From the IMG/VR virus record IMGVR_UViG_3300045978_000397, positions 1 through 43,461 of that record: DNA of 43,461 nucleotides. One strand, written 5' to 3'. This stretch comes from a virus. The notes beneath the pieces are model-generated. The model had not been told where the DNA came from. It made no database searches and saw nothing but the letters and a program-made list of their open reading frames with translations. Of this stretch, positions 4,913-42,435 are shown in pieces. A program made the translations under genes and the position numbers. Position 1 is the first letter of the stretch; each line of letters opens with the position of its first letter.

Positions 4913-6163
4913 ATGAACATCCAACCCCATCTCCTAAGCGATCTAAAGTTCATCCGCCTGGAGAAAAAACTCCCAAGAAGGGCGCTCTATATCCTCATCC
5001 GAATCTGGTCCCACTGTCAGAGCGTTACCCGGTCAGGGGTCTGGGAGGATGTAGACGTTAGAGACGTCGAATTGGTCGCCCAATGGCGCGGCAAGCCCGG
5101 AGAGCTCGCCAAAATCCTCTCCGAAACCGGCTGGATCAGCGTCATTTCCCCAACCCCGCCGGGCGTGGAATCTGGCCACTGTCTGGAGGGGAGTGGACCC
5201 AATGGGGCAGGTGCGGCTCCGGAACCCGCCCGGATGTCGATCCGCATCGTCGGATGGGAGGAGGCCAACTCCAACCTCATCCTCTCCTGGAAGCATGGCA
5301 AAATGGGTGGTAGACCAAGCCGAAACGAGTCAGCAGAGCTAAGTGCTTCAGCCACAACGCTAGAACAAAACCCGCGGGTTACCCGTGGGTTAACCCAAAT
5401 GGAACCCACGGGTAACCCGCGGGCTAACCTATTGAATAGAATAGAACTGAATAGAAAGGAAGTATCCACGTTGGGGGTAATTCGTACGTCTTGGGAGCCG
5501 TGTTCGCTGGGGGGGGCAGCACACACCTTGGAAGGTGGGCTTTCGAGCGATGGAGTGATGCCTGAAGCAAACAGCCCGCATGGCGTCCCCCCTCCGCCGG
5601 CTGACCCGGTACCAGGACGAGCGGATTCGCGGGAAGACGGGGAGGCGCCGGACGCCAGCGGTCAGGAGGACCAACTGGAGGAGGGGACGTTCCGAGTCCC
5701 TCCGGTAGTTGTGAACGAGAAATTGGCGCGAAAGTGGTTTCGCGAGTTCGTGGCAGAAGGTGCCAAGTTCGAGGAGGCTGATTTCAAGGACGTCTTCGGG
5801 TGGCTGCATGGTACTCGCGACATTCAGACGGGGCGGTGGAAGGTGGGCAAGTCAGGCCTGGTGACGGACCCGAGGCCGATCCTGGAGAACCGACTCTGCG
5901 ACGCAATGGAACGGAGGTTGAACAGGGCTGGGCAACTCACCACAGGCGGGATGGCACAACCGTCCAGTCCAGGTTCTAGGGCCTTCGTGTTGCGGCAACA
6001 GATCGCGGCTCTCGAAGAACAGCTTGAGAACCACAAAGGCAATCCGGATGGCGGGTATGCGGCCGATGTAAAACACATCCACCAGGAAGCGTGGCGCGTT
6101 AAGGCTCGTGAGCTCGATGCGCTCAAGACTCAGCTGACGAAGATCAATGAGCAGCCCGGCTGA
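4913..6163 (+). CDS. Replication initiator / helicase loader-type protein carrying the putative origin
   Basis: A 416-residue protein directly upstream of a DnaB-type helicase, the usual place for a phage initiator or helicase loader. The N-terminal domain (about 1-80) is a winged-helix-like fold with RRALYILIRIWSHC and WRGKPGELAKILSETGWISV. A linker (about 140-255) contains the 23-base inverted repeat and AT-rich tract at 5369-5460. The C-terminal domain (about 260-416) begins VNEKLARKWFREFV and ends in a coiled coil (ALEEQLENHKG...LDALKTQLTK). The arrangement recalls lambda O, where the origin lies inside the initiator gene. Function is inferred from position and architecture; no catalytic motif is present. 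It overlaps the helicase gene by 17 bases. Confidence 0.7.
   Translation: MNIQPHLLSDLKFIRLEKKLPRRALYILIRIWSHCQSVTRSGVWEDVDVRDVELVAQWRGKPGELAKILSETGWISVISPTPPGVESGHCLEGSGPNGAGAAPEPARMSIRIVGWEEANSNLILSWKHGKMGGRPSRNESAELSASATTLEQNPRVTRGLTQMEPTGNPRANLLNRIELNRKEVSTLGVIRTSWEPCSLGGAAHTLEGGLSSDGVMPEANSPHGVPPPPADPVPGRADSREDGEAPDASGQEDQLEEGTFRVPPVVVNEKLARKWFREFVAEGAKFEEADFKDVFGWLHGTRDIQTGRWKVGKSGLVTDPRPILENRLCDAMERRLNRAGQLTTGGMAQPSSPGSRAFVLRQQIAALEEQLENHKGNPDGGYAADVKHIHQEAWRVKARELDALKTQLTKINEQPG
5369..5460. other. Putative phage origin: inverted repeat plus AT-rich tract
   Basis: The arms 5369-5391 and 5403-5425 are reverse complements at 22 of 23 positions, around an 11-base loop. Each arm contains CCCGCGGG and ACCCGTGGG-type elements that read as two head-to-head iterons. 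Directly after it (5426-5460) comes a tract poor in G+C for this genome, with repeated GAATAGAA units. An initiator-binding repeat next to an easily melted tract, within an initiator gene, is the layout of lambda-type origins. No replication data can be read from sequence, so the call is inference. Confidence 0.55.
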
Positions 6164-7666: not shown

Positions 7667-8248
7667 ATGAAAGTCAGAATCACACTCACCGAGGAAATGC
7701 TCGGGACGAAGGCTGCCGACGAGACGGTCTTCGCCAGCTTCATCGCGTCGAAGGCGCCGAACGAGGACCTGAGACGACAGGAAATCGAGACCGCCGAGCA
7801 CCGCGAGGAGGCGGGCACGACCGTGTTCCACGCGGTCGGTGGCAGGAAGGGCATCTGGGATTACCAGGTGAAGGGATTCTTCAAGGACGCTTGCGGGGCG
7901 CTCAAGCGAGCGGACGAGACCCGGAGCAAGGAGTTCGCGGCGCACAAGACCAAGATCGATGGCCTTGTGTTCGTAACCCCGAGGTTCATCCATGCGACTC
8001 TTCCCGAAGGGAAGGAGATCGGTGTGTGTGAGAGACCGCTGAGAGCGGACACGGCCCAGGGGCCGAGAGTGAGTGTGTGCCGGTCGGAGACATTGCCGGC
8101 GGGCACGACATTCGAGTTCGAGGTCAGGTGCCTGGCGAAATCGATCGAGCCCCTGGTGCTCGAATGGTTGGCGTACGGGCAATTGCGCGGTCTCGGTTCC
8201 TGGCGGAATTCTGGAAAGGGCAGGTTCGATGTCGAACTGGTCCGCTAG
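7667..8248 (+). CDS. Conserved phage protein with RAMP-like glycine-rich C-terminus
   Basis: A 193-residue protein that I recognise as a phage family without an assigned role. It begins MKVRITLTEEMLGT, contains TTVFHAV, IWDYQVKGFFKDACGALKRA and DGLVFVTPRFI, then PLRADTAQGPRVSVCRSETL. It ends YGQLRGLGSWRNSGKGRFDV. The final glycine-rich segment after a beta-rich body resembles the loop of RAMP/ferredoxin-fold proteins such as Cas5-Cas7, but no catalytic histidine set or CRISPR locus is present. It is the last early gene before the repeat array at 8250. A nucleic-acid-binding role is a guess. Confidence 0.75.
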   Translation: MKVRITLTEEMLGTKAADETVFASFIASKAPNEDLRRQEIETAEHREEAGTTVFHAVGGRKGIWDYQVKGFFKDACGALKRADETRSKEFAAHKTKIDGLVFVTPRFIHATLPEGKEIGVCERPLRADTAQGPRVSVCRSETLPAGTTFEFEVRCLAKSIEPLVLEWLAYGQLRGLGSWRNSGKGRFDVELVR

Positions 8249-8249
8249 A

Positions 8250-9107
8250 GCATGCAACGGCGAAGCTAGGCGGCGCCTCGCATGGCGAAGCAACGGCAAG
8301 GCAGTGCAAGGCGTAGCGAAGCAATGGCGCTGTGTGGCGAAGCATCGCGAAGCAACGGCACTGCGCTGCATTGCCAGGGCAATGCTCAGCTTAGCTGCGC
8401 GGCGCAAAGCAACGGCGAGGCACAGCGTAGAGTTGCGATGCGAAGGCAACGCACGGCAGAGCAACGCCCGGCGAGGCAACGGCTATGCACCGCGGCGCAT
8501 GGCGCCGCAACAGCGCAGCTCTGCTCCGCTCAGCGGGGGCGTTGCGTCGTCCAGCCCCGCCCAGCGTGGCCAAGCAATGGCGTCGCGTAGCCAGGCCTCG
8601 CGTAGCAATGGCAAAGCTGCGCCATGCACAGCACAGCAACGGCCTTGCCGCGCGAAGCCCCGCAATGCCCCGCCCAGCAATGGCGATGCAAGGTACCGTT
8701 TCGCGCAGCAACGGCGAGGCATGGCCTGGCAGGGCGCCGCACAGCAACGGCACTGCCCGTCCCAGCTCTGCCCTGCAGAGCAATGGCAGTGCAATGCGAA
8801 CCTTGGCACAGCAACAGCAGCGCATGGCGTCGGGCGGCTCCGCGCAGCAACAGCAATGGGTAGCACGGCACAGCAACGGCGAAGCCCGGCTTGGCGGTGC
8901 GAGGGCAAGGCAGAGTTCGGCAACGCATGGCAACGGCCTTGCTCGGCAGAGCTGCGCATCGCGAAGCAGTGGCAGTGTTATGCACGGCCAGGCCCAGCAC
9001 AGCACCGGCTCGGCGGTGTACGGCTTCGCAACGCGGCGCGATGGCGATGCGTGGCAATGGCGAGGCTCGGCAATGGCAAGGCAATCACTCTAGCAATGCA
9101 CAGCACA
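8250..9107 (+). repeat. Phase-locked pentanucleotide (GCNNN) array with GCAAYG punctuation
   Basis: This stretch of about 860 bases without a credible gene can be read as consecutive words beginning GC every 5 nt, interrupted by 6-nt words, mostly GCAACG or GCAATG. From 8254 to 9080 I count about 160 words, roughly 148 of which begin GC. Most exceptions keep the G and the length. Successive GCAA-type words therefore lie 6, 11, 16, 26, 31, 36 or 41 bases apart: 31 at 8290, 8321, 8476, 8574, 8605, 8677 and 8780; 36 at 8254, 8708, 8744, 8811, 8930 and 8966. The mean step is 5.17 nt. All units point the same way. One hairpin, GCATTGCC-AG-GGCAATGC, lies at 8368-8385. It fills the space where a small terminase gene is expected. 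Function unknown. Confidence 0.9.
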
Positions 9108-9109
9108 TA

Positions 9110-11029
9110 ATGAGTGACTCAATCGCCACATCCCTGGATGCGCTTCCCGATCCGGAGGTGTTCTTTGCCGGTGAGCCGCAGAATCCTGTCCTACCGCTCC
9201 CCACGAAGGTCGAGTTCATCGGCCTCCTCCAGACGATTGGTGCCAACGGGATTCGCGAGATGCTAGCCAAGAGGCGTGAGCGAATCCTGGCAGGTGAACG
9301 CGAGCCGCTCGTGGCCCCGCGGCCGAAGCTCTGGCGGATCGCGCAGCGCGTGCTGGCCAGGAAGGAGATGAAGATCCTGGTGCTCCTCGGAGGCAACCGA
9401 TCCACCAAGAGTTTCTTCTGTGCCGATGCGCTCATGCGATCGGCCATGCGATCGGTCGACTACAACCAACGGCACGGATACAGCCAACCAACCATCTTCA
9501 CGGTCGGATCGGACTCGGAGGTCAATTCCATCAACACCACCCAGGCGCTAATCTGGCATTTTCTCCCGCAGCGGTTCAAGGAGTTGAACCAGGCGAAGAC
9601 ACAACGCGAGAAGCGCCTGGGCCTCGATGTCAACTACACGCCCGGCGACGGATTCGGCGATAGGACACTGGCCCTGGGATACGGTGTCGTCGTGAAGTTC
9701 GTGCTCTACTCGAACGATTCGGCGAACTTCGAGGGATCGGAATTCGGGGCCAAGGACTATAGAGATGTCTCCTGGTGGATGGATGAATCCCTGACGCTGC
9801 CCTGGCTGGCGATGTTGCGCCGCCGCGGCAGATTCCGGCCAGGCTACGGACTCTGGTCGTTCACCCCGGTGCGAGGCATCACGCCAGCCATCAAGAGTGC
9901 CGTCGGGGATGGTCGCGTGGAACGGACCAGGCGGGCATCACTGCTGCCTGATAACATCGAGCTCATCCGCGGCATGAAACCGGGAAGGGTGCCATTCGTG
10001 CAGCGCGGTTCGATGCCGGACACGTCGGTGGTGTATTTCCACAGCGACCTAACGCCTTTCTCTTCCGGGGGTCAGAAGTACGCCGACACCGTGGCTGCGG
10101 ATTGCGAGGGCAAGCCTCCGGCTTATGTGCTCCGGATTTTCTATGGGCACACGACCGACACGGTCGGGCTGGCATTTCCCACGTTCAGCCGCAAGGTGCA
10201 CGTCGTGCGCCAGGAGATGCTGCCGAGCGACGGCACCAACTACCTGTTCATGGATCCGGCCGGCGATCGGAATTGGTTCATGGTCTGGGTGCGCGTGGCG
10301 CCAGGGAACCCCAGGAGGGTCTTCATCTACCGCGAGTGGCCAGACTACGCGCGCTACGGAGAGTGGGCTGTGACGAGCGAACGCCAAGCGAGCGGCGAAT
10401 CACGCAAGGGATGGGATGGCGATCCAGGACCAGCCCAGCAGAACCTCGGGTGGGGCGTGTCCCAATACAAGCGGCAGATCCTCGATGACGAGACCGTGGG
10501 TTGCTTCGTGGACAGGGACGGGCGGGTCATCGAGCGGGATCCCTACCGCGTGCGGATTCTCGAGAATGCATCGAAGCCAGGGATCCGACGGGAGGCCCGG
10601 CGAGAGGAGGTGCGAGTGCGCAAGATCGACCCGCGCGCCGGCAAGAACCCATTCGCCGCCGAGGATGGAGGCACCAACCTGATCGATCTTTTCGCTGCCA
10701 GGCAGGACGATGGAGGCGAGTTCGGAGCGCCGATGGAGATTCTGCCAGCGTACACCGGCCGTGGGATCGACGATGGATTCACGCACGTCAATGAACTCCT
10801 GGTCTACCGGCGGAACCAACCGTTGTGCCCGTTCATCAACGAGCCCAAGCTATTCGTCGCTGAGAACTGCCACAACGTGATCTGGATGTTCGAGAATTAC
10901 ACCGGGCACGGCGGCGAAACCGGAGCCTGCAAGGATCCTGCCGACCTGGTGCGATACATCGCCCAGGACCAGGAGCTCATTCATCTCAGTCCCGAAGCCA
11001 TGCAGACACGGCCTGGAGTGACCTATTGA
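9110..11029 (+). CDS. terL: Terminase large subunit
   Basis: A 639-residue packaging ATPase/nuclease that drives DNA into the prohead and cuts it. The ATPase domain has a Walker A-like LLGGNRSTKS (about 92-101) after KEMKILV and a Walker B-like SWWMDES (about 222-228). The nuclease domain begins around YLFMDPAGDRNW (about 377-388), whose Asp is a likely metal ligand. The length is somewhat long but normal for podovirus-type enzymes. The start overlaps a TAA ending the array (TAATG at 9108-9112). A frame open from 8891 only reads through the array. No small subunit gene precedes it. The next gene follows with no gap. Confidence 0.92.
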   Translation: MSDSIATSLDALPDPEVFFAGEPQNPVLPLPTKVEFIGLLQTIGANGIREMLAKRRERILAGEREPLVAPRPKLWRIAQRVLARKEMKILVLLGGNRSTKSFFCADALMRSAMRSVDYNQRHGYSQPTIFTVGSDSEVNSINTTQALIWHFLPQRFKELNQAKTQREKRLGLDVNYTPGDGFGDRTLALGYGVVVKFVLYSNDSANFEGSEFGAKDYRDVSWWMDESLTLPWLAMLRRRGRFRPGYGLWSFTPVRGITPAIKSAVGDGRVERTRRASLLPDNIELIRGMKPGRVPFVQRGSMPDTSVVYFHSDLTPFSSGGQKYADTVAADCEGKPPAYVLRIFYGHTTDTVGLAFPTFSRKVHVVRQEMLPSDGTNYLFMDPAGDRNWFMVWVRVAPGNPRRVFIYREWPDYARYGEWAVTSERQASGESRKGWDGDPGPAQQNLGWGVSQYKRQILDDETVGCFVDRDGRVIERDPYRVRILENASKPGIRREARREEVRVRKIDPRAGKNPFAAEDGGTNLIDLFAARQDDGGEFGAPMEILPAYTGRGIDDGFTHVNELLVYRRNQPLCPFINEPKLFVAENCHNVIWMFENYTGHGGETGACKDPADLVRYIAQDQELIHLSPEAMQTRPGVTY

Positions 11030-32564: not shown

Positions 32565-35500
32565 ATGCCAGACATCTTCGATCGCGTCGCAACGGGTGAT
32601 GACGTGTTCGATCGCGTCTCCCCTGGGGAGGACGTGTTCGATCGCGTGGCCAGAGGCGAGGACGTCTTCGACCGGGTGGCCGGTGATGAAGGTGTCTGGG
32701 AGCAGACCAAGCTGGTCGGCAGTGCCCTGGTGACCGGCATCAAGCGGGCGGGGCGTGACATCGATGTCATAGCTGAGGCGCGCAAGGACGTTCCCACTAC
32801 CGGTCAACAGCGGCGTGCTCTCGAGGCCGCCATGGCCGATCCGCGTAGGCTTGGGACGTGGAATCCGGCGACCGGTCTAATGGACGATGACCGGCAGCAG
32901 CGTTTGTTCGGCGTTCCGGGCAAGCTCGAGCAGGTGCGGCGGCCGATCCAGACTGGTCGCGAGGCCCGTCGGTTCGACATTGCCGTGCAGACGGAGGAGT
33001 TGGCTGGCAGGCCGAAGTCCCAGACGATGAGGAGATGGGAGGCAATCCCGGACGACGATTACTGGAGCATGTTCAAGGCTCTAGCGACAGACCCGGTCGA
33101 GATTATCGCCACCATTAGTGCCGAGAGTTTGCCAGCGTCCCTGGTTGGATTGCCGCTGGGGCCGGTTGGAATCGGTGCGGCGTCCGGCTACAGCGAGTAC
33201 GCCTCCACCTTGGTCAGCGAAGCCGAGAAGATGGGATACGATTTCAAGGATCCCGAGCAGATCGGCCGGTTCTTCCAGAATCCGCAGGCCTTCGACCAGG
33301 CCTCGGATGTGGCAAGCAAGCGCGCCCAGGTCATCGGTGTCATGGACGCCGTAAGCGCACGCGCCGCAGGTACCATTCTGCGACGCACTTTCGGGAGGGG
33401 AGCCAGCCGGGTCCTTGGGGCCGGAGCTGCCGAGGTCGGAATGCAGATGGCTGGCGGAGCTGGTGGCGAAGCCCTTGGCAGCGTCCTGGCAGGGCAGCCC
33501 GTCAGCGTGAAGGACGTCATCAGCGAGGCGATCGGTGAGCTGGGAGGTGCACCGTCTGAAACGGTCCAGAATCTCCGAGAGGACTTGCGCGAGCGCACGA
33601 AGGAACGGCGTCGACAACTCGTCGACTCGATTCGTCGCGAGCCGCCACCACCGGCCGCGGATTCTGACCTGGTGATTGACCAGGATCTGAACCCATCGCT
33701 CCAGGCGGGTGCTGTCGAGGGGCAAGCAACGGGTGAGGCAAGAGACCGTTGGATTGACGAGACCGACTGGTCGCAGGTCGGTGTGATGCCCATCGAGGAG
33801 ATGGCGCCAGACGAGGAAGTGCCCCGCTGGCTCGATCGTCGGACCCGGATGCGCAGCGTGCGCGCCAGGGCTGCCGAGTACGGCATCGTGGATCCTGATG
33901 TCCGGTGGGCTCCGGATTTGAAAGATCCCAACGGGCAGATGATCGAGGCCTGGGTGGATCCCGAGACGGGAAGAGCGGTGTTCAACGCCGCGGCTTCGGG
34001 ACTGCACGTCGACGAGCGGGCGGGACCGATCTTCAGGGAGGAACGGGCTCATCAACTCCTGCGGTCGGCCAACGGCACAGCGATGGTCAGGCGATTCGCC
34101 CTCGAGCGAATGACGCCGGATGATGTCAGGGTCCTCGAGGCCTCCGGCTACGGCAGGCAAGCAGGATGGTCTGACGAGAGGCACCAAACGTGGCTGGCGA
34201 ATGAGTTCATCGCCAAGAGCGCGCGTGAGCAAGCGCCCTGGTGGCGAGACCTGGTTGAGCGGGTGAAGGTCATCATCTCGGACATTTCCGGTGGTCGCGT
34301 GAAGCTCACGAATGAGGAAGCTGCCCGGGCGATTCTGCGTTCGTTGCGATCCGAGGAACGGGCAGCCGCAAGGCAGGCCGCTGTGGAACCAACAGCGCAG
34401 ACGGTGGCACAAGGCGTCCAGGAGGCAGCACCTGGTGCACCTCAGTTCTCGATCGAAGGTTTCGACGAGGACTGGTTGCGTCGAGCCATAGGCGATACGA
34501 CCCAGAATCTGCAAGCGGCACTCAATCGCCGGCCCGAAACCGGCGTGGCCAAGAACAAGGCCGCCAGGTTCTCCGATGCCTCCGGCAGACCTCTCTGGAT
34601 CGGGGCCGACACGACGGAGGGAGGAAAGCCCTTCAAGGCCTGGGTCGAGGAGATGGATGCCTGGTTGTCACCGGATGAAATCGCCAGGGCCAGACGTTGG
34701 TACGATGAATTGCACGATCGTTTCGTGGCCACGTATGGGGAGAAAGACGCCAGGCGGCAGATGATCGCTTGGCTTTCGGCCCAGCAGAATGTCAGTCCCA
34801 TTGGCGCCCTGCAGAATGTCGCGCGTGTCGAGGACCGGCTCGCGGGCTTGACGCACGGGAAGCGCGGCGGGTTGGCGGATCAGAAGATCGAGGCCGTTCT
34901 GACCAAGACATTGAGTTCTGAGGGATACGGTCCGAAGCTGAGCGATTTCGTTGATGCCGGGTTTCGGAAGGAACAGAGGTCCTACGTTGGAAATGATCCT
35001 CGTGGCGGACGTCCATTCGTGGCGGACGTCCACACTGGACGCGATAGCGGACATGTCGATCAACAGACATTGTCCAGACTCGTTGACATGGCGAAGGATG
35101 GAAATCTCCTGGTCGACGGAAACCCCGTCACGGCCCGGATTCTCAAGTCCAAGCTGGTGAAGGAAGGTGGAGAAACAGTTCGCGTTCCGGAATCCATCCG
35201 CCTGAACTGGCCGGGTGGTGGCATGACCGTGAACCGGGACATGACCGGTTCACCCCAGGGCGGAAAGTACGAGGGGATCTCGAACTGGGGTAACCGCCTC
35301 ACCGATTACCTGAACCAGACTGGCTACCAGGGAGGCAACTGGACCCCGGCCCAGGCTCAAGCGGCGGGTTGGATGAGAATCCTGAGGCAGTACGGCCTGC
35401 GGGAAAGCACGGTCGACGAGGCGATCGAAGCCAATACCCACCGCGTGTCGGCAGAAGTAAACTACTCCATGGGTCGGCTCCTGCCAGCCCACTATCCACG

Positions 35501-38500
35501 CTTCGACGCCCTGCCTCCATCGGCGCAGGCGGCCATCACCGGCGAGGTGCTGACACGCACGGTCAATGACCTGGCCGATATCGTCGGCGGCTCCCTGCGG
35601 GTCGTGGGCATCGAGATCTCCCAAGGTTACTGGATGGGAGAGAAATCTCCAGCAATCCAGGCGTTCGTGATGGGATCTCCCGAGGCGGCGGACATCATGC
35701 GCGCGGCACTTGGCCTGGTCACCGAACAGGCTGGCACGATTCGGGTCACGTTCGGGAAGGGAGGCGAGGCCTCACGGGCTGTGATCGTCAGGCACGCGGA
35801 CGGAAACCGGCTATCGGAGGCAGAGATGGATTCCCTGGTCCGTTACGCCAAGGAACAGGGAAAGGAGCAGTTGATTCCGGGGTATTCGAGCTTCCCGAAA
35901 CCAGGTCAGGATGGGCATGTCATCGCGGGCTTGACCGGAACCAAGGCGGCGAAATTGGTTGACCTCATCAAGGAATGGGGCAGTACATTGCCGCCGGAGA
36001 TTCACATAGACTATGTGAACCTCCCTGCGGAAACGGACCTGAAATCCAACGACTGGGCAAGGGAAACCAATGGGGAAAGTTACAGGGCGGAAATTGAACG
36101 CCGAGGAGGCGGTTCGAGAATTCGGCGGATCCTTGATTATCGTCGGGCGTATGCCGGGCTCCTCGAAGACGCCATCGCCCGCCACGCCCCCGAAACCCTC
36201 GACCCGACCGGTCGCGAACAACGAATCCACGCCGTCGGGCGGCAAGAAGCAGGGGTCGGACCAACAGCGTTAGCGCCTCCGCCGGCGCCTCCCTCGGGGG
36301 CGCCGGTCCAATTCTCGATCGCACCAGGCACACCGCCTGGGCCCCCGGAGGAACGGCGTTTCTCCCGCCAGGTCGAGGAATCCGCGGACGTCTCCAATGC
36401 GGTCCGCGCCGGCTTGACGAACCGGCTCTATAACCCCAGGCGGAATGAACCGGACGCCGCGTTTGCGCAGCGAATTGTCTCCGAGGCAGGCGGGCCCGAG
36501 GCCGCCATCGATGCGTTCCGGAACCGAACCAATGACCTGCCGGACGCGGTCCGTGGGTTCCTGGCCCAGAACATCGTCAAGGGGCTGGGCGCCGCGGAGC
36601 AGTCCGCGGCGCTGACCAATCCTGCGGAGTCTCAACGCCTGGCCGAGCGTGCCGCGCGCTTTCTCGACGAGGACGTCTTTCCGGCGACGACGTCGGCTGG
36701 CCAATTCATCCAGTCGTTCGCCGCCTTCTCAGCCCTCACCCCTCAGGGGATGCTGTCCACCTATCGACGTGTCATCGATCGGGCAGGGGATACGGTGCGG
36801 CGCCGGCTGCAACCGGCGTTGGACCGGATCTCCCGGGACTTGCAGAAGGTCAACAGCGATGGGTTAAAGGAGCTCGCAAGCGATCCAGCGGCGCAGAGGG
36901 CCACCACGGCCGCCGCCAATGAGGCGATCCAGGAGAGCCCCTCGGTTCGCAATGCCATCACGGTGCGGGTGGCGAAGGCCTTCGGGAATTCGTCCACGGT
37001 GATGAACGACGTGCGCAAGTTGGTCAGGCGTGCGCTTGCCAAGGTGGATCATGGGAAGACGCCGCTCCCGTTATGGGAACAGTATCGCAGGGCCGCGGCC
37101 ACCCAGCTTGCGCGGCAACCCAAGGGCGCCAGGAGCCCGGGCATGCTCGACTCATTCGTGCGACGAGCAGTCGAGACACTGCGCAGCCAGATCGAGCAGG
37201 CGATGCCGCCTGGGAAGAGCGGTGGTCCTCCGCCACGGTTCGCGGCCATTGGCAAGTTGGTTGAGGCTTTCACCAATCGTGAGAAGTACGGCCAGGTATG
37301 GGAGAGTGCTCTGGCGAAGTTAAAGGAGGAATTCCCGAACGATCCGCGGGTGGACAGATTGGCGGCTGCCCCGGCGGCGCTTGTGTCACCGCGGGTCATG
37401 CGCCAGGCGCTCGAGGAGGAACTCGCCAAGGGCGATGTTGGACTAGCCGAGCTCATTGCCAACGGGTACCAGGTCAACACTGGCCGCGTGCTCAAGGACA
37501 GGATCCGTGAGGCATTGGACACGGCCGGAGTGCCCCTCGAGGACGCCGATGCCGCGGACCTGGCGCGAGTCGCCGATGCCGAGTGGAAACGCCTCGTTGA
37601 GAAGGAACGGGCGAGCGTGGCGTCCAGGACCCGCACCGTGCGCGACCGCGAATCGCGCGCCATCCGAGCCGCCACGAGCGGGCTCGTCGATGTTGAGAAT
37701 CTTCCAGTGGACGAGCTCGACGCGGCAATCCGTGACGAACTGCGCCGGTTGCGCACGAACCTGGGGGCTGTCCTCCGCGAACACTATTCGGGATGGGAGC
37801 GCACCGGAGAGACGCTGGCGCAGCGCCTGGCGGACCGTGCCGGGCTGCCGAAGGCGACTGCTGATCGGTTGGCCACGCAGTTGCAGGAACGGTTTCGCAC
37901 CCTGCTGTCCGAGAGTCGTCGCAAGGCGATCATGGCCCATGCTGCATCATTGCCGAGGAAGTACCGGCGCAAGCTACCGATCGACGAGATCGCTGAGCTC
38001 GCCAACCTGGGGCTCCTCGAGCGGAAGGAGGTCTGGGACGCGGTTCGAACCAAGCTCGGATTGCCAGGCTATTCTAAGGCGACCTCCGCGGAGGTGGTGC
38101 GTCGGGCCAATGAACTCCAATCCAAGCCCGAGGGATTCCAGCGGGACGAGGCGGCGCTCGATTTGCTCAACTACATCGCCAGGCAGAGTGGCGTCTCTCC
38201 GTGGGAATTGGGTATGGCCTTCTGGTATGCGAACACGCTGAGCGGACCGTTCACCCATCTAATCAATGCCGGAGCTAACGCCCAGCAGATCGCGGCGCAC
38301 AGCGTCTTCGCCGGTACGCGCGATCCGAAGGCGATCCCTGGTCTGATCGGCGCACTCGCCGACGGGTTCATGGGTGGACTCAACGAGGCTGGCCGGGTGT
38401 TGCGCACTGGCAAGGTCACCGGGTCGAGGGCCCTCCAGCTCGAGGCCGGATCCCCCCTCGAGCTGATGGGCAATGAAGCCTGGTGGCAGAAGATCCTGAA

Positions 38501-39944
38501 CAAGTGGAAGTACGTCGCGCGCGCTCTGGCGGCGAGCGACATGCTTTTTTTCAAGACTGCCGAAGCCCAGCGGCAGTACGTCCTGGCTCGAGCGGTGGCT
38601 CGCGAGGAGGGACTCGGAGGCGAGGAGCTCGAGAAGCGAACCGCGGAGCTGTTACATGGCACGGAGGAGCAGCAGGCCCAGATCAAGGACCAGGTCGAGC
38701 GGGAAGGCCTTAGCGGCACGGCGAGGGACAAGCGCAGGCGGGAGCTTCGGGCCAGGCTATTGCCGCCCGGCGTGGCGGAGAACGCCAAGGAGTTCGGGCT
38801 ACGGACGATCTTCAACGGCGAACCCTACGGGCTCCTGGGCACGGTGGCACGGTGGCTGAAACCGATGCTCGCGGAATCGCCTGCGCTGCGCCTGGTCGTG
38901 CCGTTCGTTGACGTCGTTGCCAATGTGACCAACGAGGCCTTGAACTATTTCCCGCCGGTCGGTGCCGGCCGGGCACTGGCGGGCCGATACGCCGGGACGT
39001 TGAACGGAAAGACGCTCGACCTGGGGACCGAATCCGGCAGGGCAGACCTCTTCGACCAACAGGCGAAGGCGGCGGTCGGGCTTGTGGCCATGGCTGGAAT
39101 CGCCGCCGCGGCGGCACCAGGCCTCGATGACGAGGATCCAAAGTTCGCCATCTACGGATCCGGCCCAGGCGACCAGACCGCGAAGGCGAACTGGCGCGCC
39201 GCCGGCGGCAGGCCTTGGACAATCAAGGTGGGTGACCGATCGTGGTCCTATGCCGACAGTCCGTTGGCGATTGGGTTGGCCGTCCTCGGGTCCTACATGG
39301 ACAACATCCGGTGGCGGAAGATGGAGGATGCCACGGCCCTCGATCGCGCCGCGGTTGCGCTTACGGCGTGGCCCCGGGTGATCGTGCAACGGAGTTTCCT
39401 GCGGGGCGTGTCCGACCTGTTCGCTGCCATTTCTCGCGACACGGCACCGAAGAAGGCAGGTGAGCGGGCGGTCAGCGGACTTGCGACGACCGGTTCGTCC
39501 TTCGTCGTGCCGAATCTGCTGCGCCAGGTCGACCGACTGTTCGATCCGACCGTGACCGATTCGAGCACCGTGAAGGGCGCCCTGATAGGTCAGATTCCGT
39601 TCGTGCGGCGCTTAGGCCGACCCGCCCTGACACCCCTCGGCGACCCCGTCGAGGCCTCTCCCGTGGACCGCATCACCTCGGTGGAGTCCACGGATCCACT
39701 CCTGCGCACCCTGGCCGCGAAGGAGGCCTGGGTGTCGATGCCAAGCCAGGGCGAACTGACGGCCGACGAGCACTATCAGCTGGTCCAGGAACGAGGCAAG
39801 TTGTTGCGCCGTGCGCTCGAGGGCCAGGTGGCGTTTTTGGAGCGAGCGACGCCGAAACAGGCGGAGGCAATCGTCGATCGAGTGTCGTCAGAGGCGACGA
39901 AGGCCGTGCGCCTCCGGATCCTGGCGGCGCGACGGATGAAGTGA
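32565..39944 (+). CDS. Giant internal virion (polyvalent-type) protein
   Basis: A 2,459-residue protein, the largest in the genome, in the last ejection-gene position. Residues 3-43 are four 10-residue repeats of the form (I/V)FDRVxxG(D/E)D. A Gly/Ala-rich hydrophobic region follows (about 190-310, LPASLVGLPLGPVGIGAASG). Near 490 EERAHQLL resembles a degenerate metallopeptidase motif. About 660-1130 forms a domain with WYDELHDRF, IAWLSAQQNVSP and KRGGLADQKI (DUF7178-like, recalled). The C-terminal third has FWYANTLSGPFTHLINAGAN and GPGDQTAKANWRAAGGRPWT, then SYADSPLAIGL, as in large polyvalent phage proteins. It is probably ejected with the DNA. Confidence 0.75.
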   Translation: MPDIFDRVATGDDVFDRVSPGEDVFDRVARGEDVFDRVAGDEGVWEQTKLVGSALVTGIKRAGRDIDVIAEARKDVPTTGQQRRALEAAMADPRRLGTWNPATGLMDDDRQQRLFGVPGKLEQVRRPIQTGREARRFDIAVQTEELAGRPKSQTMRRWEAIPDDDYWSMFKALATDPVEIIATISAESLPASLVGLPLGPVGIGAASGYSEYASTLVSEAEKMGYDFKDPEQIGRFFQNPQAFDQASDVASKRAQVIGVMDAVSARAAGTILRRTFGRGASRVLGAGAAEVGMQMAGGAGGEALGSVLAGQPVSVKDVISEAIGELGGAPSETVQNLREDLRERTKERRRQLVDSIRREPPPPAADSDLVIDQDLNPSLQAGAVEGQATGEARDRWIDETDWSQVGVMPIEEMAPDEEVPRWLDRRTRMRSVRARAAEYGIVDPDVRWAPDLKDPNGQMIEAWVDPETGRAVFNAAASGLHVDERAGPIFREERAHQLLRSANGTAMVRRFALERMTPDDVRVLEASGYGRQAGWSDERHQTWLANEFIAKSAREQAPWWRDLVERVKVIISDISGGRVKLTNEEAARAILRSLRSEERAAARQAAVEPTAQTVAQGVQEAAPGAPQFSIEGFDEDWLRRAIGDTTQNLQAALNRRPETGVAKNKAARFSDASGRPLWIGADTTEGGKPFKAWVEEMDAWLSPDEIARARRWYDELHDRFVATYGEKDARRQMIAWLSAQQNVSPIGALQNVARVEDRLAGLTHGKRGGLADQKIEAVLTKTLSSEGYGPKLSDFVDAGFRKEQRSYVGNDPRGGRPFVADVHTGRDSGHVDQQTLSRLVDMAKDGNLLVDGNPVTARILKSKLVKEGGETVRVPESIRLNWPGGGMTVNRDMTGSPQGGKYEGISNWGNRLTDYLNQTGYQGGNWTPAQAQAAGWMRILRQYGLRESTVDEAIEANTHRVSAEVNYSMGRLLPAHYPRFDALPPSAQAAITGEVLTRTVNDLADIVGGSLRVVGIEISQGYWMGEKSPAIQAFVMGSPEAADIMRAALGLVTEQAGTIRVTFGKGGEASRAVIVRHADGNRLSEAEMDSLVRYAKEQGKEQLIPGYSSFPKPGQDGHVIAGLTGTKAAKLVDLIKEWGSTLPPEIHIDYVNLPAETDLKSNDWARETNGESYRAEIERRGGGSRIRRILDYRRAYAGLLEDAIARHAPETLDPTGREQRIHAVGRQEAGVGPTALAPPPAPPSGAPVQFSIAPGTPPGPPEERRFSRQVEESADVSNAVRAGLTNRLYNPRRNEPDAAFAQRIVSEAGGPEAAIDAFRNRTNDLPDAVRGFLAQNIVKGLGAAEQSAALTNPAESQRLAERAARFLDEDVFPATTSAGQFIQSFAAFSALTPQGMLSTYRRVIDRAGDTVRRRLQPALDRISRDLQKVNSDGLKELASDPAAQRATTAAANEAIQESPSVRNAITVRVAKAFGNSSTVMNDVRKLVRRALAKVDHGKTPLPLWEQYRRAAATQLARQPKGARSPGMLDSFVRRAVETLRSQIEQAMPPGKSGGPPPRFAAIGKLVEAFTNREKYGQVWESALAKLKEEFPNDPRVDRLAAAPAALVSPRVMRQALEEELAKGDVGLAELIANGYQVNTGRVLKDRIREALDTAGVPLEDADAADLARVADAEWKRLVEKERASVASRTRTVRDRESRAIRAATSGLVDVENLPVDELDAAIRDELRRLRTNLGAVLREHYSGWERTGETLAQRLADRAGLPKATADRLATQLQERFRTLLSESRRKAIMAHAASLPRKYRRKLPIDEIAELANLGLLERKEVWDAVRTKLGLPGYSKATSAEVVRRANELQSKPEGFQRDEAALDLLNYIARQSGVSPWELGMAFWYANTLSGPFTHLINAGANAQQIAAHSVFAGTRDPKAIPGLIGALADGFMGGLNEAGRVLRTGKVTGSRALQLEAGSPLELMGNEAWWQKILNKWKYVARALAASDMLFFKTAEAQRQYVLARAVAREEGLGGEELEKRTAELLHGTEEQQAQIKDQVEREGLSGTARDKRRRELRARLLPPGVAENAKEFGLRTIFNGEPYGLLGTVARWLKPMLAESPALRLVVPFVDVVANVTNEALNYFPPVGAGRALAGRYAGTLNGKTLDLGTESGRADLFDQQAKAAVGLVAMAGIAAAAAPGLDDEDPKFAIYGSGPGDQTAKANWRAAGGRPWTIKVGDRSWSYADSPLAIGLAVLGSYMDNIRWRKMEDATALDRAAVALTAWPRVIVQRSFLRGVSDLFAAISRDTAPKKAGERAVSGLATTGSSFVVPNLLRQVDRLFDPTVTDSSTVKGALIGQIPFVRRLGRPALTPLGDPVEASPVDRITSVESTDPLLRTLAAKEAWVSMPSQGELTADEHYQLVQERGKLLRRALEGQVAFLERATPKQAEAIVDRVSSEATKAVRLRILAARRMK

Positions 39945-41061: not shown

Positions 41062-41101
41062 ATCCGAAGTCAGAAGCTCTAGCCAATTGAGCTACGGACG
41101 C
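41062..41101 (-). other. Probable attP: 5' half of a tRNA-Arg(TCG) gene
   Basis: Read on the minus strand from 41101 the sequence starts GCGTCCG, then TA, a D-arm GCTC-AATTGGCTA-GAGC, T, an anticodon stem start TCTGA and loop CTTCGGA with anticodon TCG. All expected bases are in place: T8, A14, G18-G19, A21 and T33. After T39 it departs from a tRNA (ATTATGG instead of the matching stem), so only positions 1-39 exist. It overlaps the 3' end of the integrase gene: the stop TAG at 41094-41092 is tRNA T8-A9-G10. This is the expected signature of attP for an integrase targeting a tRNA gene. Here, unusually, the phage carries the 5' half. Confidence 0.8.
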
Positions 41102-42435
41102 ACTTCTGTTGCCCCGGAAGGACTTGCTTGTCCAACTTCCGGGAAATCAATGACATGGATCGCCGTCTGTCCAGCCGAAACCGCATTAGACGCCCCCAAG
41201 TTGACGGCGGTTGTGGTTGTTTGGACGCCAGATGGGGTGGTATCCAATCCGGCTACCGGCACATCACTCGCGCAGGTGCGCACGTAGCGGCCATAATGCC
41301 GCTCCGTCGTGGTGACCGAGGAGTGCCGCAGCCAGTCCCGCGCCACCAGGAGCCCGTCCCTCATCGCGACCCAGCAGCCAGCCAGGGCTCGGAATTCGTG
41401 GTAAGCCTTCTGGGTCTCCCACCCCAGGCCCCGCAACCAGGTCGAAATCTCGTCGAATAGCGCGTCGGCCCGGTAGGTGTCGGTTCCGGCCGGCGCCAGG
41501 ACGTGGCGGTCCGGCGGCAGGAGCGCGACGATCGGAGCCAGGTGCTCCCAGGCGCCGTTGGCCACGGCAATCCGCGGGCTGATGGACCCGTTCTTCGTGG
41601 CGGTGTTCGTCTGGCCCGGAGTACCGGGCTGCACGACCTCGCGCAGTTCGAGGTGCAGCCGCCCGTTCAACCTCACGAACCAGCCGGCGCGGACCGCGGC
41701 GGCCTCCGACTTCCGAAGCCCGAAGCCAAGGGCCAGCCAGACCGCGGCATACCGGTCCGGGTGCGTCAGCCGGGTGGCTTCGAGATCGGCGAGGGTGGCG
41801 CGCACCAGGTCGTCGCTCGGGATTCGGTAGTCGTCCTTTGAGACGCCGCGGAATCCGGGCGCGTCACGGAATCCGCTAAGGTCGGGCAAGGTGAGATTTG
41901 CGATGATCCGGTAGTGCTCGAGCAGATGAGGGGAGAATAGCGCGCGTGCGGAGCGAAGGGTGGTATTAGCGGAGCGGCAGAGTTGAGTCCGTCGCGCATC
42001 GTCCTCCCCGGCGGCATTGGCCTGGACGGCCTGGCGGTACCGGAACACCAGATCGCGTGTCAGATCGGACACCGGCCTGGAATCCCATGCCGGGTCCTTC
42101 CCCAGGGCGACCTCGAGAACCGCGCGAAGGCCTCCGACGTACCCTCGCCTGGTGTGTGGCGTCCACTCTCCAGGGGCAGTCTCGAACGCGCTGATGATCT
42201 CGCGGATGGTGACCGCGTTGGGGTCCCGCCGAAGCGACGAAGCAGCTACGTCCTCGAGGCGGCCCTGGGCCATGGCCTTCCGCAATGCGGCGCCGAAACG
42301 CTGTGCGTCCTTGAGCGATAGGAATCCGGTATTTCTCAGGATTCGCTTACCGCGCCAGCAGAACCGCACGTAATACTCGTCCGATTCCACCACCGTGCCG
42401 TCGGCCTGCTTTCTCTTCCTGCGGAAATAGTTCAT
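41092..42435 (-). CDS. int: Tyrosine integrase
   Basis: A 447-residue site-specific recombinase. The N-terminus (MNYFRRKRKQADGTVVESDE) with YYVRFCWRGKRILRNTGF looks like an arm-binding domain. The middle is a core-binding SAM-like domain (about 75-175). The catalytic domain holds Arg241 (LALGFGLRKSEA), a candidate Lys281, His346 and Arg349 (YHEFR), His371 (DWLRHSS) and Tyr381 (TTERHYGRY). All the expected catalytic residues are therefore present. The last codons lie inside a tRNA-Arg 5' half, the likely attachment site. It follows a BamE-like lipoprotein gene with a 5-base gap. Confidence 0.93.
   Translation of the reverse strand: MNYFRRKRKQADGTVVESDEYYVRFCWRGKRILRNTGFLSLKDAQRFGAALRKAMAQGRLEDVAASSLRRDPNAVTIREIISAFETAPGEWTPHTRRGYVGGLRAVLEVALGKDPAWDSRPVSDLTRDLVFRYRQAVQANAAGEDDARRTQLCRSANTTLRSARALFSPHLLEHYRIIANLTLPDLSGFRDAPGFRGVSKDDYRIPSDDLVRATLADLEATRLTHPDRYAAVWLALGFGLRKSEAAAVRAGWFVRLNGRLHLELREVVQPGTPGQTNTATKNGSISPRIAVANGAWEHLAPIVALLPPDRHVLAPAGTDTYRADALFDEISTWLRGLGWETQKAYHEFRALAGCWVAMRDGLLVARDWLRHSSVTTTERHYGRYVRTCASDVPVAGLDTTPSGVQTTTTAVNLGASNAVSAGQTAIHVIDFPEVGQASPSGATEVRP

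Follow-up and report, generated by a model that had tools for sequence, protein, structure and literature searches.

The RAMP proteins of CRISPR systems oligomerise on their guide RNA, and CRISPR gains guides by means of Cas1-Cas2. A phage-encoded system, VIPR (Viral Interference Programmable Repeat), was described in 2026 as a likely ancestor of CRISPR effectors (PMC13142463, bioRxiv 2026). According to that preprint, VIPR consists of a small phage RAMP protein and vrRNAs made of tandem GGY/NN pentanucleotides, in which the NN letters pair with DNA and one target base is skipped per repeat. The complex represses competing phages and other mobile elements, for which experimental proof is given, and the examples include Escherichia phage SUSP1 and a P. 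fulva prophage (PMC13142463). The same text mentions related consensuses, staggered arrays and seven types (PMC13142463).

The locus considered here lies in the IMG/VR virus record IMGVR_UViG_3300045978_000397, whose analysed stretch of 43,461 nt is referred to below as the window. Positions 8254-9107 of the window are very probably a VIPR-type multi-guide RNA array with an adjoining RAMP gene, in a GCR/NN version that has 6-nt unit delimiters. The features of the locus are as follows:

7667..8248, + strand: predicted Vipr-like RAMP gene, 193 aa, with the C-terminal glycine-rich loop GLGSWRNSGKGRF (AlphaFold2, Foldseek, VIA-align, profile searches)
8254..9107, + strand: probable guide array of 165 words, with 5-nt GC-R-NN words and 29 6-nt putative delimiters, mostly GCAAYG, in about 25 units (word parse, letter analysis)
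8254..8259, + strand: first 6-nt word, GCAACG, with which the array opens (word parse)
9086..9107, + strand: 3' end of the array, a CACTCTA interruption followed by GCAAT GCACA GCACA (word parse)

The array starts 5 nt past the stop codon of the 193-aa gene, and a gap of 2 nt separates the last letter of the array from the likely start of terL, which encodes the terminase large subunit (9110-11029); a DnaB helicase is encoded upstream of the locus. Genes for a major head protein, an amidase and an integrase (41092-42435, - strand; phrog_1, E 8.8e-18) are located further along the window, and this gene content indicates that the virus is probably a temperate tailed phage. Most structural proteins of the window match only distant PHROGs, which places the virus far from characterised phages. 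A 2459-aa open frame (32565-39944, + strand) contains a 30-bp tandem repeat of 3.2 copies near its start (32577-32671).

Word grammar of the array

The best parse of positions 8254-9107 comprises 165 words, of which 136 have 5 nt, 29 have 6 nt and none has 4 or 7 nt, and 152 of the words begin with GC; the initial annotation, made from the sequence alone, had been nearly exact in counting about 160 words, 148 of them starting with GC. The mean step is 5.18 nt, and the phase is kept over 854 bp. The 6-nt words are represented by GCAACG (ten), GCAATG (seven), GCAACA (three) and nine others. That the array is phase-locked, as had been claimed, is confirmed by autocorrelation: GC-GC pairs at lag 5 number 113, compared with 33.3 +/- 4.8 in 500 dinucleotide shuffles (z 16.7), none of which reaches 113. 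Strong signals (z 7-13 against dinucleotide shuffles) also occur at lags 10, 15, 16, 21 and 26, and lags 4, 9, 14 and 19 are depleted. Lag 6 by itself is without enrichment (27 vs 33), and the 6-nt step appears as lags 11, 16, 21 and 26. The parse score of the array is 289.5, compared with 76.7 +/- 7.7 for shuffles. Because the content of the units varies, Tandem Repeats Finder recovers just two short pieces of it.

Letter information was measured in many phages, for a total of 922 contexts of 6-nt words. It amounts to about 1.3-2 bits at position 1 (G), to about 0.5-1.3 bits at position 2 (C) and to about 0.15-0.6 bits at the purine-biased position 3, these three values being somewhat inflated since the positions are part of the parser model; positions 4-5 of ordinary words, which are unaffected by it, hold mostly 0.01-0.07 bits. 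The array word is G-C-R-N-N, with three constrained letters and two free ones. The formula GCNNN given in the initial annotation was therefore correct with regard to the GC start but left out the constraint on the third letter, and GC-R-NN describes the word better.

The 6-nt words cut the arrays into units mostly 4-8 words long, with a mode of 5-6 and a non-random distribution (70 arrays), and an array opens with a 6-nt word in 43 of the 70, where 16% would be expected (p 2e-17). In the window, about 25 units are distinguished, mostly of 5-7 words. We infer that the 6-nt words serve as unit delimiters. Near the 3' end, immediately ahead of the final three words and terL, the grammar is broken (9086-9107, GCAATCACTCTA), and this break could be a boundary signal. 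The 3' end in the window resembles a terminal unit present in some gut-phage arrays, GCAAAG GCACA GCACA; the likeness is weak, as this unit is found by exact string in 2 of 72 arrays.

The RAMP gene and its link to the arrays

The 193-aa protein itself has no match in Pfam, PHROG, NCBIfam or PADLOC. An AlphaFold2 model built from 43 relatives has a pLDDT of 86.5, and its top Foldseek matches in the PDB are type VII Cas7 (E 1.2e-6) and type III-A Csm3 (E 2.6e-6); all 50 listed PDB fold matches are CRISPR proteins. VIA-align of the model gave a Z of 12.8 and an rmsd of 4.0 over 161 residues. Independently of the model, a sequence profile matches Cas7 (E 0.0012) and Csm4 (E 0.0097) at the G-loop, and Cas7_IIId models are matched by 10 of the 43 relatives. 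On this evidence of fold and profiles, the protein is a predicted Cas7/Csm3-type RAMP.

The link between this gene and the arrays was found from both directions. The word syntax, which the initial annotation had proposed looking for in other phages, is indeed present there: when IMG/VR was scanned twice with parts of the grammar, 16 contigs were recovered, some of which are duplicates of one virus and one of which (L010) is the window's own virus, and the RAMP gene lies directly 5' of a same-strand array in 16/16. In L001, L008 and L013, the gene is flanked by a further array on its opposite side. A C-terminal motif, YGxLRGLGQWRNSGKGRF, together with 22 invariant columns is common to the relatives of the gene among these loci. 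In the reverse direction, 331 relatives of the RAMP gene were collected from IMG/VR by gene family alone, and the best 80 of the 331 were kept; the grammar parser detected an adjoining same-strand array in 74 of these 80 contigs. In 48 of the 74 it lies only downstream of the gene, in 21 only upstream, and 5 contigs have an array on either side; the median gap is 18 nt for downstream arrays, counted from the stop codon, and 44.5 nt for upstream ones, counted to the start codon. Among the remaining six, four have same-strand array tracts somewhat further off, and two have none detected. Human faecal phages in GenBank also carry the RAMP gene and an array; DNA similarity to the window array was not found in GenBank phages, nor was the RAMP gene found in plasmids. 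The grammar (GC-R-NN words, 6-nt delimiters and an array beside a G-loop RAMP gene) can serve as a simple detector: applied to 1.15 Mb of larger phage contigs, the parser found arrays only at RAMP loci, except for one seemingly split over contig ends.

GT-core arrays are situated beside relatives of the window RAMP in L090 (4776-5955), L098 (5469-5933) and L038 (4710-5350), so the second letter differs between phages. Among the syntax matches in bacteria, L025, L026 and L028 look like ordinary tandem repeats and were rejected, L027 and L030 gave no array, and no credible relative of the RAMP gene was found in the genomes of the matches L025-L030. An isolated array-like tract of 46 words is present in L029 (910-1144, - strand), a short Verrucomicrobia MAG contig, with the RAMP family absent from both the contig and the genome; it may represent an orphan array, an array of another RAMP type, or chance.

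Array turnover and target searches

In six related gut-type phages, whose RAMP genes are about 90-94% identical, the arrays can be read as lists of units, each opening with a 6-nt word. The units are common, missing or private largely as modules, and their content is not conserved; L086, for example, is without a block of units that is present in its relatives, up to the same terminal unit. Clean indels between the gut-type arrays number 17, one of which is a single base, while the rest range from 5 to 367 nt. L039 and L040, which have identical RAMP genes, show no indel relative to each other across 1600 nt and differ by 19 substitutions, most of which fall into two patches. Since the indels are mostly of word or unit size, the phase is maintained through word- and unit-sized change and not through the absence of indels. 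The drift without indels that the initial annotation had envisaged thus holds for the interior of words, where single-base indels are rare, but not for whole units, which are gained and lost among related phages. Arrays of this kind, with shared and private units, make guide gain and loss in phages directly testable.

Word position 1 changes less between relatives than the other positions (15/471 vs 150/1884, p 1e-4), a difference that the G preference of the parser may inflate somewhat. The absence of substitutions from positions 1 and 6 in the 6-nt words was not accepted as evidence, the observation being largely circular because the parser favours G there. In L039, a near-identical run of words, GCTAT GCAGA GACTC GCAGG GCGATG, occurs twice in one array (about 4998-5050 and 5200-5260), and the L039-L040 differences cluster at this duplicated run; the pattern suggests duplication or gene conversion of units.

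When sliding 9-word guides with 0-3 skip bases were searched against fetched loci amounting to 0.9 Mb, targets were no more frequent than for guides with shuffled word order. Guides from the gut-phage arrays produced 34 exact matches at skip 1 in 1.8 Mb, compared with 8 for shuffled guides, and this excess was rejected as a sampling artefact because it is confined to L113-L126, which had been fetched using those same guide patterns, and nothing is left without them. Extension of the skip-1 matches beyond the unit was at chance, and three further 20-letter guides had 0 matches in IMG/VR.

Interpretation and comparison with VIPR and CRISPR

Before the guide reading is developed, other explanations of the array have to be weighed. 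The initial annotation had suggested the binding track of a filament-forming protein, and it came close, since RAMPs oligomerise on guide RNA. Taken as a filament that is not RNA-guided and that makes one contact per half helical turn of the double-stranded array, the suggestion agrees with the mean step, two of which are close to 10.4 bp, with the phase kept over the whole array, and with the self-complementarity of GC, which makes the step visible on both strands. However, the grammar is strand-specific (264 for the same-strand model vs 98 for the opposite strand in the window), nearly all arrays are on the strand of the RAMP gene, their constant neighbour is a RAMP of RNA-binding type, and two free letters per word would be needless for a fixed DNA-binding protein; we therefore consider a DNA track very unlikely. 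The half helical turn is also unnecessary as an explanation of the step, which equals the repeat length of the published VIPR vrRNAs (PMC13142463). The contact of the window array with terL could point to a packaging (pac) site or another terminase recognition region, and a packaging or replication element was among the earlier suggestions, but the neighbours change from locus to locus, the RAMP gene alone is kept beside the arrays with no other family in common, and some arrays lie upstream of it in early regions with repressor, SSB or recombination genes. With the RAMP gene and not the terminase as the kept neighbour, this explanation retains hardly any credibility.

The ability of GC words to pair with each other would suit a structural or decoy RNA with a defined fold, which had been proposed as well. 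The array RNA, however, folds less well than its own shuffles (MFE -403 vs a shuffle mean of -414, z +1.98; 20/20 shuffles fold at least as well), an Rfam scan gave no match for the array, and unit content is not conserved; weak folding is a better fit to a guide than to a structural RNA, and the latter appears extremely improbable. The same low estimate applies to a functionless sequence, either degenerate coding or a tandem repeat made by slippage. ORF 8073-9110 does run through the array without a stop, but stops are rare there in all six frames (0-4 each), so that one open frame is expected, and a 5/6-nt period cannot hold a reading frame, on which ground the initial annotation had rightly regarded the array as non-coding. 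Moreover, many diverged phages have the same grammar, in nearly every case together with the RAMP gene; this recurrence and the reciprocity of the link contradict such an origin, and the slower change of word position 1, even if partly inflated by the parser, also speaks against it.

Returning to a guide array with its own RAMP protein, we propose that the array is probably transcribed together with the upstream RAMP gene (7667-8248); on the + strand between the RAMP gene and the terminase, neither a promoter nor a terminator belonging to the array was recognised. RAMP subunits would polymerise along the array RNA, one per 5-nt word, with the protein holding the constrained G-C-R and the free letters at positions 4-5 pairing with DNA, and one target base would probably be skipped for each word, a rule that has been measured for VIPR. 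Boundaries of the guide units would be marked by the 6-nt words (GCAAYG in the window); a mature guide may extend into neighbouring units. By analogy with VIPR, the resulting RNP would bind and silence the DNA of competing phages or other mobile elements. It is also conceivable that every 6-nt word is both the end of one guide and the beginning of the following one, that one transcript gives rise to about 25 short guides, and that phages swap, add or drop guides as intact units, like the spacers of bacterial CRISPR but without Cas1/Cas2; this extension is offered tentatively, and we lean slightly against it.

Among known systems, class 1 CRISPR-Cas (types III and VII, with Csm3 and Cas7) resembles the locus in the RAMP fold and G-loop, both predicted here, and in an array whose variable units are set apart by short constant words and turn over unit by unit among relatives. 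In contrast to CRISPR, there are no 25-40-nt repeats with spacers but 6-nt delimiters and a 5-nt internal period, and a lone effector RAMP gene stands in place of a cas operon with adaptation and several effector genes. Tandem-repeat and Rfam scans revealed no repeat family of CRISPR length in the window, and none of the ten window proteins scanned around the locus had a CRISPR-associated match.

The likeness to VIPR includes a small single-domain RAMP of about 20 kDa with a conserved G-loop and an RRM core (predicted fold; 193 aa in the window) and adjacent non-coding 5-nt tandem repeats with three constrained and two free letters. In addition, a 6-nt word, GGTRTG, which resembles the 6-nt words of the window, occurs just before the last word and the tail in each of the four SUSP1 vrRNAs, which were read as a positive control. 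The differences are as follows. The window RAMP is only faintly similar to SUSP1 Vipr (E 0.08 for the profile of 43 relatives, at the G-loop). An accessory (vap) gene, typical of VIPR, was not found here, and within about 4 kb a simple ORF caller detected neither vap nor any other gene family common to many loci. The arrays reach hundreds of words per block and are cut by 6-nt delimiters, whereas VIPR has separate ~100-nt vrRNAs with structured tails; no structured 3' tail follows each unit here, and the 6-nt words may play that part. Finally, the constrained triplet is GCR and not GGY, which bears only on membership of the SUSP1-type subgroup, since the preprint allows 'a related consensus'. 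The GCR/NN delimiter form may already be among the seven types of the preprint and, if the supplementary figures of the preprint do not show it, would constitute a new VIPR variant.
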